From Acidobacteriota bacterium (lineage in GTDB: Bacteria; Acidobacteriota; Thermoanaerobaculia; Multivoradales; Multivoraceae): a stretch of 43,331 bases of DNA. Location of the stretch: assembly GCA_003388555.1 (NCBI GenBank), contig QQVD01000064.1, positions 1-43,331 on the forward strand, read 5' to 3'. Shown one piece after another: positions 20,295 to 26,156 of this stretch (position 1 is its first letter; every line of letters begins with the position of its first letter). Under the pieces are notes generated by a model. It saw only the letters and a list, made by a program, of their open reading frames with translations, searched no databases and was not told where the DNA came from. The position numbers and the translations under genes were made by a program.

Positions 20295-20385
20295 CATCCA
20301 CCGGATCGGGCACGAGACGTCCCCACCGCCGCAAGTCGCCGCAGGCCCGTCCGCTACCCGGCCCAGCACTCCAGGAGGCCACGAG

Positions 20386-21657
20386 ATGCACCACCGCACC
20401 GCGATCGAAGTACCCGCCGAACCCGGCCTCCGCCGACACGTGCCGCGACTGCTGCCGGTCGCCGTGCTCACGCTGGCGGCTTGCGCCGTGCAGTCCGACC
20501 CGGCCCAGATCGAGTTCCTCCTCCGGCAGCAGCTGATCGGCGCCCAGCCCGGCGACGTGATCGAGATCCCCGAGGGCACCTTCCGCTTCGACCGCAGCCT
20601 CACCCTGAGCGCCGACGGCGTCACCATCCGCGGCGCCGGCATGGACCGCACCATCCTCTCGTTCCAGGGCCAGCAGCAGGGCGCCGAGGGACTGCTGGTC
20701 AACGCCAGCGACTTCACCCTCGAGGACCTGGCGATCGAGGACACCGTCGGCGACGCGCTGAAGGTCAACGAGGGCCGCAACGTGGTGCTGCGACGGGTGC
20801 GGGCGGAGTGGACCGGCGGACCGAAGCGCGAGAACGGCGCCTACGGCCTCTACCCGGTGCAGGTGGAGAACCTCCTGGTCGAGGAGTGCGTCGCGATCGG
20901 CGCCTCCGACGCCGGCATCTACGTCGGGCAGTCGAAGAACGTCGTCGTGCGCAACAACCGCGCCGAGTACAACGTGGCCGGCATCGAGATCGAGAACACG
21001 ATCGGCGCCGACGTGTACGGCAACGTGGCGACGAACAACACCGGCGGCATCCTGGTCTTCAACATGCCCTCGATCCCGGTCGAGGGTCACAGCACCCGCG
21101 TCTACGGCAACACCGTCGCTGCGAACAACACCGCCAACTTCGCCCCCGAGGGCACCGCGGTCGCCAGCGTGCCGGCCGGCTCCGGAGTGGTGATCAACTC
21201 GAACGACCGGGTCGAGATCTTCGACAACGACATCCGCGACAACCAGACCGCCAACGTCATCATCGCCAGCTACTTCTCCACCGGCTACTACGGCGAGCGC
21301 GAGGAGGCGGAGGAGTACGACCCGTACCCCGAGACCCTCTACATCCACGGCAACCGTTTCTCCGGCGGCGGCGACGCGCCCGACGGCGAGGATCTCGAGC
21401 AGCTGCGCCTGGCCGCCTTCGGCGAGCAGGGGCGTCTGCCGCACATCATCTGGGACGGCTTCACCAACCCCGAGAAGCTCGAGGGCGAGTGGCTGGCGCC
21501 GGCCTACGCGCTCTGTGTCGGGCAGGAGGACGCGCAGCTGTTCGACGTCGACGGGCCGAACGGCTACGCCGCTCCACGCTTCGTCGAGGCGGCGAGCCGG
21601 TGCACGCACGAGCCGCTGCCGGCCGTGGAGCTGGCGCCGCCCCTGCCGCAGACCTGA
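20386..21657 (+). CDS. Parallel beta-helix lipoprotein (two-gene module, part 1)
   Basis: A 423-residue exported protein. A signal sequence ends in the lipobox LAAC, so it is probably lipidated. It starts with a pectate-lyase-like opening (GDVIEIPEGTFRFDRSLTLSADGVTIRGAG). About eight coils of a right-handed beta-helix follow, rich in Asn ladders (VVVRNNRAEYNV, DVYGNVATNNTGGILV, VEIFDNDIRDNQTANV). It matches what I know of the family described as a beta-helix protein that regularly occurs beside a second exported protein, and that partner type is the next gene (TGATG overlap). The function of that pair is, to my knowledge, unassigned. AGGAGG precedes the ATG at 20386. Confidence 0.85.
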   Translation: MHHRTAIEVPAEPGLRRHVPRLLPVAVLTLAACAVQSDPAQIEFLLRQQLIGAQPGDVIEIPEGTFRFDRSLTLSADGVTIRGAGMDRTILSFQGQQQGAEGLLVNASDFTLEDLAIEDTVGDALKVNEGRNVVLRRVRAEWTGGPKRENGAYGLYPVQVENLLVEECVAIGASDAGIYVGQSKNVVVRNNRAEYNVAGIEIENTIGADVYGNVATNNTGGILVFNMPSIPVEGHSTRVYGNTVAANNTANFAPEGTAVASVPAGSGVVINSNDRVEIFDNDIRDNQTANVIIASYFSTGYYGEREEAEEYDPYPETLYIHGNRFSGGGDAPDGEDLEQLRLAAFGEQGRLPHIIWDGFTNPEKLEGEWLAPAYALCVGQEDAQLFDVDGPNGYAAPRFVEAASRCTHEPLPAVELAPPLPQT

Positions 21658-22973
21658 TGCCCGGCGCCGATCCCCGCCGCGGCGGTGGCGCCGTTGCCGC
21701 GGCCGGGCTCCGCTGGCCTGCCGGCGTCACTGCTTCCGCTCTCGCCCTGGCGGTCGCTGTCGCCGGCGGCTGCGCCCGGCCGCCGCAGGGCGTGGTGTTC
21801 CACGCCGGCGAGGCCCCGGCGAAGCTCTCCCAGTGGAACCTCTTCACGCGCAGCGGCACTCGCCTGGTGCCTTCCCCGGGAGTGCTGCCCTACGAGCTCA
21901 ACTCGCCGCTCTTCTCCGACCACGCCCACAAGCTGCGCACGGTGTGGATGCCCGACGGCGTCGCGGCGCCGTACCACGACTCCGACGTCCTCGACCTGCC
22001 GGTCGGCACGGTGCTGAGCAAGACCTTCTACTACCCCCTGGCGAGCTCTTCGGAGGGCTCTGCGGAGGGCTCGGCGGAGGGCTCGGCGCGGAGCTCTGGC
22101 GCGGCGCTCGCGGTGCTGGCCTCGCGGCCCGGCGAGCCGGCCCCCTCACCGCTCGAGGATCTGGGCGCCGTCGTGCTGCTCGAGACCCGACTGCTGGTGC
22201 GCCACGCCGACGGCTGGGACGCGCTGCCCTACGTGTGGAACGCCGAGCAGACCGAGGCGCGGCTGACCATGGTCGGCGCCGCCTTCGATCTCGAGCTCGC
22301 GCCGACGACCACGGGCGGCGGGCCCGGTGGCACTGGCGCCGACGCCGAAGCCCTGCGCTACTTCGTGCCCGACCGCAACCAGTGCGGCGGCTGCCACGTC
22401 ACCGACCACTCCTCCGGCGCCCTGCAGCCGATCGGCATCCGCGCCCGCCACCTCGACCGCGCCGCACCGGCGTCGCCGGCAGCGCCGCCCGGCGCCGCGG
22501 ACCAGCTGACGCTGTGGCACCTCGAGGGCTATCTCGAAGGGCTGCCCGCGAGCGGGCGCGGCACACCCGCGGCGGTGTGGTGGGACACCGACCAGCCGCT
22601 CGAGAGCCGCGCCCGCGCCTACCTCGACATCAACTGCGCCCACTGCCACAACCCGGCCGGCGCCGCCGACACCTCGGGGCTGCTGCTCGACGCCGACGCC
22701 GGGCTCGAGGCGATGGGCCGCTGCAAGCCACCGATCGCGGCCGGGCGCGGCACCGGCGACAGGCGCTTCTCGATCGTGCCGGGAGATGCGGAGGCCTCGA
22801 TCCTGCTCTTCCGCATGCGCTCGAGGGACCCGGGAGTCGCGATGCCGGAGCTCGGCCGCTCCACCGTGCACCACGAGGGGGCGGCGCTGATCGCCGAGTG
22901 GATCGACTCGATGCAGGGTGACTGCGGTCACACCAGGGCCGGCGTCACCGGCACCCTGCGCACCGGCGGCTGA
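21657..22973 (+). CDS. Diheme cytochrome c lipoprotein (two-gene module, part 2)
   Basis: A 438-residue exported protein with a hydrophobic signal ending AGGC (Cys39, probably lipidated). Two haem-binding CxxCH motifs are present: C243-G-G-C-H247 and C327-A-H-C-H331. A likely axial Met396 lies in AMPELGRS. The N-terminal 230 residues are beta-rich and contain the conserved opening LPYELNSPLFSDHAHK with VWMPDG. This layout fits the uncharacterised HNE_0200/SO2930-type family of paired exported proteins. Its ATG overlaps the beta-helix gene stop, so the two are translated together. A 12-bp repeat at 22053-22088 adds the tract EGSA three times. It should act in electron transfer or redox chemistry on an unknown envelope substrate. 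Confidence 0.87.
   Translation: MPGADPRRGGGAVAAAGLRWPAGVTASALALAVAVAGGCARPPQGVVFHAGEAPAKLSQWNLFTRSGTRLVPSPGVLPYELNSPLFSDHAHKLRTVWMPDGVAAPYHDSDVLDLPVGTVLSKTFYYPLASSSEGSAEGSAEGSARSSGAALAVLASRPGEPAPSPLEDLGAVVLLETRLLVRHADGWDALPYVWNAEQTEARLTMVGAAFDLELAPTTTGGGPGGTGADAEALRYFVPDRNQCGGCHVTDHSSGALQPIGIRARHLDRAAPASPAAPPGAADQLTLWHLEGYLEGLPASGRGTPAAVWWDTDQPLESRARAYLDINCAHCHNPAGAADTSGLLLDADAGLEAMGRCKPPIAAGRGTGDRRFSIVPGDAEASILLFRMRSRDPGVAMPELGRSTVHHEGAALIAEWIDSMQGDCGHTRAGVTGTLRTGG
22053..22088 (+). repeat. Three tandem 12-bp units in the cytochrome gene
   Basis: GAGGGCTCTGCG, then GAGGGCTCGGCG twice, encode EGSA-EGSA-EGSA at residues 133-144. They keep the frame and differ at one base. Confidence 0.85.
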
Positions 22974-23003: not shown

Positions 23004-23369
23004 ATGCCACGTCACGTCACCCAACCCACCATCGTCGCCGCCGCGGGCAACAAGCCGAAGACCATCGCCGAGCTCGTCGGCCGGCTGAACACCGGAGACG
23101 AGCAGGTCAGCGTCGCCCGCATGAGCTCTCCCGAAGGATGGGTCGAGCCCGGTCAGCGGCCGGCGTTCCGCGAGATCACGGTGGTCATCGCCGGCACGCT
23201 GCGGGTCGAGAGCGAGGAGGGCGCGATCGAGGTCGGCGCCGGTGAGGCGGTGATCAGCGAGCCCGGCGAGTGGGTGCGCTACAGCTCGCCGCGGGCCGGC
23301 GGCGCCGAGTACGTCGCCATCTGCCTGCCCGCCTTCTCGCCGCAGACCGTGCACCGCGACGACGACTGA
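23004..23369 (+). CDS. Small cupin-fold protein without metal-binding histidines
   Basis: A 121-residue single-domain cupin. The beta-barrel pattern is visible: PAFREITVVIAGTLRVES (cupin motif 1 region), IEVGAGEAVISEPGEWVRYSSP (turn and motif 2) and AEYVAICLPAFSPQTVHRDDD at the end. The His-x-His of motif 1 is missing (PAFRE instead), and motif 2 has Arg-Tyr where His is usual, so a standard metal site is unlikely. It has no signal peptide. GAGGAG precedes the ATG. It follows the cytochrome gene by 30 bp on the same strand and may be in that operon. Its role is unknown; ligand binding or sensing are options. Confidence 0.78.
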   Translation: MPRHVTQPTIVAAAGNKPKTIAELVGRLNTGDEQVSVARMSSPEGWVEPGQRPAFREITVVIAGTLRVESEEGAIEVGAGEAVISEPGEWVRYSSPRAGGAEYVAICLPAFSPQTVHRDDD

Positions 23370-23492: not shown

Positions 23493-26156
23493 ATGCTGGC
23501 CGGCCCCGAGCGACCGGTCGCCGCGACGCCTCGCCTTCGTGCGGCGGTCCGGCGACCCCTCCGGCGCACCCCGTGGCGCTGGCGTTCGGCCTGCGCCCGT
23601 CTGCTGACCATCGCCGCGCTCGCCGGCGGTCCGCCGGCGGCGCTCGGGGCGACGTCGCCGGGCGCTTCTGCCAACGCCGAGCCCCAGACGAGGCCGCTCG
23701 CGGCGCGCCACCAGCACTTCCTCGAGCAGACCCGGCTGCTCGCCTCCGAGACCGAGCACCAGGTCTTTCTCGAGCTCAGCGAGGACTACCGCAGGGACGC
23801 TTTCGTGCGCCAGTTCTGGCGCGTCCGCGACCCCCATCCCGAGACGGCCCGCAACGAGTTCCGGGAAGCCTGGGAGGACAGTCACGAGCTGGCGCGCCAG
23901 CGCTACCCGGACGCCGAGGACGGCCGTCACCAGCTGATGGCGGTGCACGGCGAGCCGCGCCGCACCCTGCGCATCAGCTGCGAGCTGCTGCGGCCGCTCG
24001 AGCTCTGGCACTACGGAGCGCGGCCGAAGGTGGCGGAGCTGTGGGCGGTGCTGATGCGCCAGGGCGGTCGCTACCGGCTGTGGTCGCCGTCGCAGGGGCT
24101 GTTCGCACTCGCCGCCGGTCGCCTGCCGCTCGACGCCAACGAAGCGGCGGAGGCGGTGGCGAGCGCCTGCTCGCGCGGCGACGAGATCCTCACCGCCCTG
24201 GCACTCTCCCCCGACTGGGACTCCGTCGGGCTCACCGACCACCTGCGCCCCGGCGACGACGAATGGGCGCTGGCTCTGCGCAGTCGCTCGCTGGAGACCG
24301 AAGAGGGCGCCGACACCACGACCCTCGAGCCGCGCATCGAGTACATCGGGCGTCACCAGAGCCGCACCGTGGTCAAGGCGAGGCTGGCGATCCCGCGCTC
24401 GTCGATCCAGCTCGACGATCGCGCCACCGGCGGCGGCGTGGCGCGGCTGCTGCTCGACGGCGAGGTGGTGCGTGGCGACGACCTCTTCGAGACCTTCCGC
24501 TACCGCTTCGACCTGCCACTCGGCGAAGGCGTCGAAGACGGCGGCGATGGCGGTGGCGGAGCGCCCGACGACATCGTGCCGGTGGCCATCGAGAGGCTGC
24601 TGCGTCCCGGTCGCTATCGGCTGCGCCTGCGCGTGGCCGACCGGCTCGGCGACCACGCCTTCATCGCCGACCAGGAGCTCGACGTGCCGCGCTGGCGTCG
24701 GCCCGAGCCGAAGGACGGCGGCGTCGCCGATCGCCCGGTCGCGGTCGCCGGCATCCGTGGCGCCGAGGAACCCGGCCCGCTCGCCCCCGACATCCCCGGT
24801 TCCGAGAGCGACCCGGCGGCCGACGAGCCGAGCGTCAGGCTGAGCGTGCCGCGCGACGAGCTGCTCACCGGCAGGGTGCGGGTCGAGGCGTTCAGCTCCG
24901 GACCGGGGATCGCAAGGGTCGGCTTCGACCTCGACGGCAGGCGGCTGCTGACCAAGGCGAGCCCGCCCTACAGCGTCGAGATCGACATCGGGCGGGCGCC
25001 ACGGCGGCGCGAGCTGCGGGCCTACGCACTGGACGAAGCCGGCGCCGAGCTGGCCGAGGACAGCATCGTGCTCAACGCCGGTCCGAACAGCTTCTCGATC
25101 CGGCTCGTCGAGCCCCGCCGCGGCAGTGCGCCACGTGGTTCGGTGCGCGCCGTCGCCGAGGTCGACGTGCCGCCGCTCGAGAAGCTCGACCGGGTCGAGT
25201 TCTTCCTCAACGAGGAGCGTCTGGCGACGCTCTACCAACCGCCCTTCGTGCAGCCGCTCGAGGTGCCCGGGGATCTCGATCTCAGCTTCGTGCGCGCCGT
25301 CGCGGTGCTCGACGGTGGCGGCTTCGCCGAGGACATGGTGTTCCTCAACGCGCCCGACGAGGTCGAGTACCTCGACGTCGACTTCGTGCAGCTGTACGTC
25401 TCGGCCAGCGATCGCCGTGGCCGCCCGGTCACCGACCTGGCGCCCGAGGAGATCTCGGTGCGCGAGGACGGTCAGGCAGTCACCCTGCGCCGGATCGAAC
25501 CGGTGCGCGACCTGCCGATCCACGCCTGCGTGCTGCTCGACACCTCGATCTCGATGCAGGATCGGTTGCGCGAGGCGAGCAGCGCGGCGCTCTACTTCTT
25601 CGAGCGCGTGCTCAGCGAACGCGACCGTGCCTGCCTGGTGACCTTCAGCGACCACCACGATCTCGCGGTCGGCTTCACCTCCAGCATGGAGGTGCTGTCC
25701 GGCGGCGTCAGCGGCCTGGTCGCGGAGGGAGAGACGGCCCTCTACGACAGTCTGATCCACACCCTGTACTACTTCGGCGGCATCCGCGGCAAGCGCGCCC
25801 TGGTGCTGCTCTCCGACGGCGACGACTCGACCTCGGAGTACGACTTCGAGGAGGCGCTCGAGTTCGCCCGCCGCTCGGGCGTCGCGATCTACACCATCGG
25901 ACTGGCGATCGACAACCGGCAGATGGACGTGCGCGCTCGCCTCAACCGGCTGGCCCGCGAGACCGGCGGCGAGAGCTACTTCATCCACGAGGCCACCGAG
26001 CTGCGCCGGCTCTACACCGAGATCGAGGAGGAGCTGCGCTCGCAGTACCTGCTGGCCTATCAGTCGCCGGGCCAGGGGGAGGGCTACCGCGAGATCGAGG
26101 TCGAGGTGGCGCGCAAGGGCGTCAAGGCCCGCACTCTCCGTGGGTACTACCCGTGA
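23493..26156 (+). CDS. Secreted VWA-domain protein with degenerate GWxTD domain
   Basis: An 887-residue exported protein with an Arg-rich N-terminus and a hydrophobic stretch near 36-52. Residues about 70-176 follow the GWxTD-domain pattern (FW at 108-109, RDP at 112-114, NE at 121-122, a GEP turn and a closing LWHYG), but the GW-x-TD motif itself is absent. Residues about 470-660 look like beta-sandwich repeats. A C-terminal von Willebrand A domain (about 660-880) has a complete metal site: D683-T-S-I-S687, Thr748 and D775-G-D. VWA plus GWxTD proteins are a common expansion in Acidobacteriota and related phyla; their ligands are not known. A metal-dependent adhesion role is an inference. The ribosome site is weak (AAGGAT). 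Confidence 0.85.
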   Translation: MLAGPERPVAATPRLRAAVRRPLRRTPWRWRSACARLLTIAALAGGPPAALGATSPGASANAEPQTRPLAARHQHFLEQTRLLASETEHQVFLELSEDYRRDAFVRQFWRVRDPHPETARNEFREAWEDSHELARQRYPDAEDGRHQLMAVHGEPRRTLRISCELLRPLELWHYGARPKVAELWAVLMRQGGRYRLWSPSQGLFALAAGRLPLDANEAAEAVASACSRGDEILTALALSPDWDSVGLTDHLRPGDDEWALALRSRSLETEEGADTTTLEPRIEYIGRHQSRTVVKARLAIPRSSIQLDDRATGGGVARLLLDGEVVRGDDLFETFRYRFDLPLGEGVEDGGDGGGGAPDDIVPVAIERLLRPGRYRLRLRVADRLGDHAFIADQELDVPRWRRPEPKDGGVADRPVAVAGIRGAEEPGPLAPDIPGSESDPAADEPSVRLSVPRDELLTGRVRVEAFSSGPGIARVGFDLDGRRLLTKASPPYSVEIDIGRAPRRRELRAYALDEAGAELAEDSIVLNAGPNSFSIRLVEPRRGSAPRGSVRAVAEVDVPPLEKLDRVEFFLNEERLATLYQPPFVQPLEVPGDLDLSFVRAVAVLDGGGFAEDMVFLNAPDEVEYLDVDFVQLYVSASDRRGRPVTDLAPEEISVREDGQAVTLRRIEPVRDLPIHACVLLDTSISMQDRLREASSAALYFFERVLSERDRACLVTFSDHHDLAVGFTSSMEVLSGGVSGLVAEGETALYDSLIHTLYYFGGIRGKRALVLLSDGDDSTSEYDFEEALEFARRSGVAIYTIGLAIDNRQMDVRARLNRLARETGGESYFIHEATELRRLYTEIEEELRSQYLLAYQSPGQGEGYREIEVEVARKGVKARTLRGYYP

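Follow-up and report, generated by a model that had tools for sequence, protein, structure and literature searches.

A recurrent pair of beta-helix and di-haem cytochrome lipoproteins in an acidobacterial genome, a possible two-part oxidative enzyme of the cell envelope

Parallel beta-helix proteins of the family TIGR03805 and di-haem c-type cytochromes of the family TIGR03806 (SO2930 family) are already catalogued as a pair without a function, and none of the open-licence papers that we searched gave one. The described systems closest to the two proteins are cytochromes P460 and c'-beta, the enzymes MauG and MbnH together with the di-haem cytochrome c peroxidases (CCP), the alginate epimerases AlgE4/AlgE6 and AlgG with the PL6 lyases, and NosD. 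Here, we describe one such pair, encoded at positions 20386-22973 of a 43,331-nucleotide stretch of DNA from an Acidobacteriota bacterium (assembly GCA_003388555.1, contig QQVD01000064.1), which we call the window. We propose, with a probability of roughly 40%, that the two genes encode a two-part oxidative enzyme of the cell envelope, with putative catalysis and a putative substrate. New in relation to the catalogued pair are the predicted likeness of the first haem domain of the cytochrome to cytochromes P460/c'-beta and the fusions of the same helix family to a CCP/MauG-type domain in other genomes.

Architecture and recurrence of the pair

Gene 1 (20386-21657; all features given here lie on the + strand) encodes a TIGR03805 parallel beta-helix lipoprotein of 423 amino acids, and gene 2 (21657-22973) encodes a TIGR03806 di-haem c-type cytochrome lipoprotein of 438 amino acids, as assigned from their open reading frames (ORFs), NCBIfam profiles and AlphaFold models. 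In the NCBIfam search, gene 1 scored 436.6 bits against TIGR03805 (E 4.6e-131, curated cut-off 141.5; domain at residues 46-359, 20521-21462) and gene 2 scored 337.1 bits against TIGR03806 (E 9.7e-101, curated cut-off 313.3). Since both scores exceed the curated cut-offs, the family matches are not due to chance. A Pfam scan of the pair gave Beta_helix (E 5.5e-22) and a marginal PSCyt1 match (22.2 against a cut-off of 22).

On reading the sequence, we found a Shine-Dalgarno-like AGGAGG (20373-20378) 7 bases 5' of the gene 1 ATG and a one-base stop/start overlap, TGATG (21655-21659), in which the A of the gene 2 ATG (21657) is the final base of the gene 1 TGA. Motif reading and alignment placed a lipobox-like LAAC in gene 1 (residues 30-33, 20473-20484), the Cys33 of which is kept in 59 of 64 aligned rows (the remainder are four gaps and one Phe), and a lipobox-like AGGC in gene 2 (residues 36-39, 21762-21773). 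Gene 2 carries the haem 1 site CGGCH at residues 243-247 (22383-22397) and the haem 2 site CAHCH at residues 327-331 (22635-22649), and Met396 (22842-22844), the proposed sixth ligand of haem 2, is identical in all 73 aligned proteins, including that of the window. An earlier note, made from the letters of the window alone, had read lipoprotein-type signals on both proteins, the start/stop overlap, the two CxxCH sites and a likely Met ligand, and had named the two families; all of these readings stand.

We then looked at how often the two genes occur together in 102 sources, consisting of the window, 20 stretches of related genomes, 80 loci of named genomes and one plasmid record. The named loci, all proteobacterial, are the 80 best among 580 confirmed matches, which makes them a biased sample of related loci. 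The helix was matched in 95 sources, in 94 of them above 100 bits; the remaining one (L053, helix at 75 bits, no cytochrome) is excluded from the count below (L and G numbers are our own handles for loci and genomes). The cytochrome adjoins the helix in 90 of these 94 loci, 88 of which were found by script as neighbours on the same strand and two by gene calls (L075, L091), and the other four are one contig end (L063) and three fusions (L051, L052, L059). The second sample was an even draw of 297 genomes from the window's phylum, with at most seven candidates scored per genome. TIGR03806 passed its cut-off in 15 of them and TIGR03805 in 20. All 15 TIGR03806-positive genomes have the helix beside the cytochrome, although 13 of them belong to the window's own family and are therefore not independent. 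The 20 helix-positive genomes comprise these 15 pairs, four genomes with only a CCP/MauG fusion (G028, G106, G329, G357) and one with neither (G218). In a plasmid collection, TIGR03806-like proteins appeared in one record and helix-like proteins in seven, with both together in one. The pairing of TIGR03805 with TIGR03806 is real, and the recurrent two-gene pair that the earlier note had named is borne out by both samples. The window pair shares with its family the passed cut-offs, the adjacent genes on one strand and the lipoprotein-type signals and differs in nothing essential, except that its cytochrome has a repeat-like stretch rich in Ser, Glu, Gly and Ala at residues ~129-149 (22041-22103), where the model confidence is low and the relatives are variable.

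The cupin-like ORF just downstream (23004-23369), which had been suggested as a third member of the module, is present in the window with a weak Cupin_2 match (22.2 bits against a cut-off of 27.2). The neighbourhood survey, however, found no relative of it near the pair in the 101 other sources (phmmer, 1e-5), and we dropped it as a member because it occurs in one source of 102, the window only.

Seven TIGR03806-like proteins (L042, L054, L055, L056, L057, L058, L060; E <=1.1e-45, below the cut-off) stand alone, without a helix. They keep the same core residues as the pair type. The lipobox Cys39 is present in 66 of 66 pair-type rows and in none of the seven lone-type rows, indicating that the lipobox goes together with the helix partner. 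At six of the seven lone-type loci, a neighbouring ORF contains a single CxxCH, and three of these ORFs match Pfam Cytochrom_C.

The haem-1 domain and its predicted likeness to cytochromes P460

The haem 1 site of the cytochrome (AlphaFold model from 73 sequences, mean predicted local distance difference test score (pLDDT) 86.4) belongs to a beta domain, cut here at residues 47-300 (21795-22556), which structure and profile comparison predict to be P460/c'-beta-like. When we compared the model with 995 PDB chains by VIA-align, the top five were all cytochromes c'-beta or P460, with Z scores of 7.2, 6.1, 5.9, 5.5 and 5.3, and the sixth chain had a Z of 3.0. The best of them, 7s5o, aligns over 132 residues at 3.7 Å, and its Z lies below the program's own mark of 8, under which a match may reflect merely a common arrangement. 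The profile comparison by hhalign used 33 of the 73 haem-1 domains as the query and 17 acidobacterial PF16694 (Pfam P460) proteins as the target; the latter came from 30 loci, after nine without a frame found, three with a wrong frame and one near-copy were dropped. It returned a probability of 88.4% (E 2.8e-6), compared with 0.27% for the reversed profile and 5.84% for the best of 30 column shuffles, and it brings a G-T strand, a GW and the CxxCH into register. Singly, 50 of the 73 rows match PF16694 weakly (best E 1.8e-5), and some of these matches may rest on the haem motif because other CxxCH families match equally often. Ten rows were inspected one by one. Eight of them list PF16694, all below its gathering cut-off of 27 bits; in seven the match covers strands outside the CxxCH, and in the eighth it covers the CxxCH alone.

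Besides the Z score below the VIA-align mark, several results here weigh against the likeness and, through it, against the proposed enzyme. Foldseek gave no match of the whole cytochrome model in the PDB at E <=0.001, the window protein itself has no PF16694 match listed at E 10, and an hmmsearch of PDB chains with the cytochrome listed no P460, only matches at the level of the haem motif. Removing the CxxCH region lowers the hhalign probability to 14.8% (0.35% for the reversed profile and 1.7% for the best of 60 shuffles), indicating that the haem motif supplies much, but not all, of the P460 signal. We therefore use the word P460-like for a predicted resemblance of the haem-1 domain and not for membership in PF16694. 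The resemblance would comprise the predicted fold, a CxxCH at the C-terminal end of the domain and a Lys at the cross-link position. In contrast to cytochromes P460/c'-beta, gene 2 has an extra domain with the second CxxCH and the Met, a lipobox and, in the pair type, a constant helix partner, and it scores below the Pfam cut-off.

The aligned residues are more specific. Lys122 (22020-22022), in a GTxxxK motif and present in all 73 rows, aligns through the P460 profile with Lys106 of NsP460 (numbering counted by hand), which is entered as the haem cross-linking lysine in Table 2 of PMC11928373. Glu176-Thr177-Arg178 (22182-22190, each in 73 of 73 rows) coincides with the distal-carboxylate position of P460 or is off by no more than two residues, so that either Glu176 or Arg178 would be near that position with the register uncertain by two residues. 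Along with these four residues and Met396, Trp187, Tyr192 and Trp194 are identical in every row. Beyond the His residues of the two CxxCH motifs and Met396, the 73-row alignment contains no invariant His or Met; His329, which lies within the haem-2 motif, is invariant among the 66 pair-type rows only, and His405 is found in 91% of the pair-type rows. This fits a haem 2 held by His331 and Met396 and a haem 1 that is open or Lys-linked on its distal side.

Such a haem 1 could also sense or scavenge a gas or peroxide, or carry out P460-type hydroxylamine or nitric oxide chemistry, with the helix as a scaffold or envelope anchor. The P460/c'-beta-like domain with Lys122 and Glu176 speaks for this, as the account of cytochromes P460 in PMC11928373 links the Lys cross-link and the distal carboxylate to hydroxylamine oxidation. 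We nevertheless consider it unlikely: the Glu176 register is uncertain, as noted above, and the explanation accounts neither for the conserved residues of the helix nor for the CCP/MauG partner of the same helix family, both described below.

The same ligand pattern bears on whether the pair might be an outer-membrane electron-transfer module only, with a structural helix. SO2931 of Shewanella oneidensis is presented as an outer-membrane cytochrome in PMC5357785 and PMC12175506, and as di-haem in the former, while in PMC4837345 both SO_2930 and SO_2931 appear among the c-type cytochromes of the outer-membrane/extracellular column. The placement of these putative equivalents would agree with a conduit. 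However, the 73 rows share no His or Met that could be the second axial ligand of haem 1, which leaves a pure conduit very unlikely in our judgement.

The beta-helix and its other di-haem partners

The AlphaFold model of gene 1 (64 sequences, mean pLDDT 92.9) has the right-handed beta-helix fold of AlgE4/AlgE6, AlgG and the PL6 lyases, which are among its best PDB matches. The mannuronan C5-epimerases AlgE4 and AlgE6 come first (AlgE4 with Z 32.6 over 289 residues at 2.6 Å and 21% identity), and other epimerases, lyases, polygalacturonases and NosD (7osf, Z 27.0) are further matches. Asp-Pro-His is the catalytic motif of the alginate C5-epimerases AlgG and AlgE. Gene 1 has no DPH, and the motif occurs anywhere in only one of the 64 aligned rows. 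In a weak HMMER alignment, the DPHD of AlgG falls on Tyr156-Pro-Val-Gln, so the Asp and His of the epimerases appear to be absent. We thus rejected an identity as alginate epimerase, in which the fold matches while the catalytic motif is missing. We likewise rejected NosD, the profiles of which match gene 1 weakly in both the NCBIfam and Pfam scans, with TIGR04247 at 40.1 bits, far below its curated cut-off of 300.

The helix is highly conserved in a stretch from Tyr153 to Asn204 (20842-20997) of the 64-row alignment, which takes in three fusions and L053. Every one of the 64 rows has Tyr153, Asp175, Tyr179, Gln182, Ser183, Glu201, Glu203 and Asn204, and 63 have Tyr156. The TIGR03805-labelled protein Bcam1339 is placed in a Burkholderia exopolysaccharide cluster by PMC3584217, a context that gives, by analogy, a weak hint at glycans.

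Seven acidobacterial genomes (G028, G043, G049, G106, G329, G343, G357; all seven by phmmer) encode the helix fused to a CCP/MauG-type domain, and G343 holds both a fusion and the pair. The fusion ORFs have 772-818 codons, with the di-haem domain at the N-terminus and the TIGR03805 helix at the C-terminus. Scanning three of them identified the N-terminal part as a PF03150 domain (MauG/CCP; E 2.7e-55 to 6e-53), which also matches the models for MauG and MbnH, with scores under the curated cut-offs of both. Ruegeria pomeroyi DSS-3 has the helix in an operon with a cytochrome c peroxidase; the genes are annotated, in order, as encoding a c-type cytochrome, the peroxidase, a TPR protein and the parallel beta-helix protein. 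Gene 2 would resemble MauG, MbnH and the di-haem peroxidases in putatively having one catalytic and one electron-transfer haem, and it is homologues of these enzymes that other Acidobacteriota carry in fusion with this helix family, but gene 2 differs in that PF03150 is not listed for the window protein and is listed for five of the 73 rows only, with a best E of 0.27. A single helix family is therefore partnered by two or more kinds of di-haem protein. That two di-haem proteins without a match to each other's models partner the same helix family is the strongest argument for an oxidative chemistry. The AlgE-like fold and the fusions to peroxidase-type domains also uphold the earlier description, in which a beta-helix resembling carbohydrate enzymes is coupled with a redox protein.

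The fusions raise the alternative that the di-haem protein matures the helix as MauG or MbnH would, oxidising its tyrosines (Tyr153, Tyr156, Tyr179) by hydrogen peroxide-driven chemistry into a protein-derived cofactor, so that the helix would be the working enzyme. The near-complete conservation of the three tyrosines and the CCP/MauG type of the alternative partner favour this. In addition, towards the C-terminus of the domain, the L051 fusion has a Tyr where the peroxidases have a Met in the alignment, and all seven acidobacterial fusions share this FY. We take the aligned position to be that of a ligand of the six-coordinate haem. The ligands of this haem, according to PMC6405878, are Met and His in peroxidases but Tyr and His in MauG. 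Against maturation, the L051 domain is closer to cytochrome c551 peroxidases (2.2e-55) than to MauG (1.7e-29), the scanned fusions stay below the MauG and MbnH cut-offs, and the helix of L053, on a short contig without a di-haem neighbour, keeps Tyr153 and Tyr179. On balance, we regard maturation as improbable.

Genomic context and the proposed function

Downstream of the pair, the window encodes a VWA protein (23493-26156) that matches TIGR03436 (acidobact_VWFA) and GWxTD domains. Among 113 loci, the neighbours include a TonB receptor relative at 22, ATP-grasp/DUF2126 relatives at nine, HupE at seven and ActA at seven. The nine loci with ATP-grasp/DUF2126 relatives belong to one acidobacterial genus and to four of the seven Pseudomonas loci. 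In the former (L045, L046, L047, L049, L050), the pair has an amidoligase-type cluster (DUF2126/transglutaminase, ATP-grasp, Alpha-E) in its vicinity, and in the latter (L075, L077, L110, L112) this cluster lies directly 5' or 3' of the pair; as this is confined to two lineages, it may be due to chance. The window genome also contains one lone-type protein and, on another contig, a second TIGR03805/TIGR03806 pair (L041:7443-18450), which lies near ActA/ActB-like genes (a multihaem cytochrome and a large molybdopterin/iron-sulfur protein) and NrfD and has an arylesterase-like gene upstream. The pair of the related genus (L045-L050) is also near ActA/ActB-like genes, with SCO1. We take these ActA/ActB-like neighbours to be alternative-complex-III-like genes.

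Gene 1 shares 64% identity with gammaproteobacterial helices and 43-45% with the second copy of its own genome, and it falls inside a gammaproteobacterial clade with a Shimodaira-Hasegawa-like approximate likelihood ratio test (SH-aLRT) support of 93, or 96 after removal of five long rows. Despite this placement, a lateral gain of the window pair is not established, since the approximately unbiased (AU) test on a quick tree does not reject the 17 acidobacterial rows as one clade (p 0.33).

Starting from the observed gene order, families, co-occurrence, haem sites, residue conservation and alternative CCP/MauG fusions, we propose that the two genes give one envelope-anchored, two-subunit oxidative enzyme, probably of the outer membrane. 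Gene 2 would be the redox subunit, with a catalytic haem 1 in the P460/c'-beta-like domain, its distal side open or Lys122-linked, and with haem 2, liganded by His331 and Met396, as the electron-transfer haem. The AlgE/AlgG-fold helix of gene 1 would bind and present the substrate through Tyr153, Tyr156, Asp175, Tyr179, Gln182, Glu201, Glu203 and Asn204, and this substrate may be an envelope glycan or a similar ligand, or the helix's own side chains. Haem 1 would carry out a peroxide-type (or P460-type) oxidation, while haem 2 would exchange electrons with periplasmic carriers. We also considered a more specific version, in which a P460-fold haem, perhaps Lys cross-linked, and an electron-transfer haem form an envelope oxidase that has the alginate-epimerase-like helix as its partner or substrate and that is replaced by a MauG/CCP-type protein in other lineages; in this full form it is rather unlikely to be right.

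The genomic survey adds to the points that count against the two-subunit enzyme. No ORF of at least 90 amino acids with two CxxCH was found at L053, where less than 1 kb of downstream DNA is available, or in the 18 kb of G218/L167, and the helix loci of two Bacteroidota plasmids (L143 from Hymenobacter, L144 from Persicobacter) have no ORF of at least 90 amino acids with a CxxCH in 16.6 kb each. The L053 helix keeps most of the conserved residues, including Tyr153, Tyr179 and the acids, and helices of this kind may function without a haem partner. These helices without a di-haem neighbour, together with the tyrosines and acids kept in L053, are the strongest argument against over-reading the pair. 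Moreover, gene content varies widely by lineage and the neighbours at the 113 loci point to no common pathway, and we infer the complex formation, localisation, catalysis, substrate and grouping of the conserved helix residues at a single site. The oxidation or sensing of an envelope polymer, which the earlier note had suggested, is likewise something that we infer.

The pair is distributed among many Proteobacteria, to which all 80 named loci kept belong, and Acidobacteriota. A P460-like active haem and the helix-peroxidase fusions make its function testable through Lys122, Glu176, Met396 and the tyrosines of the helix. If the proposal is true, P460-fold chemistry would reach beyond small nitrogen compounds. 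Under its more specific version, the oxidase would be, to our knowledge, the first enzyme of P460 type with a macromolecule as its partner or substrate, and two different di-haem enzymes would serve one protein.

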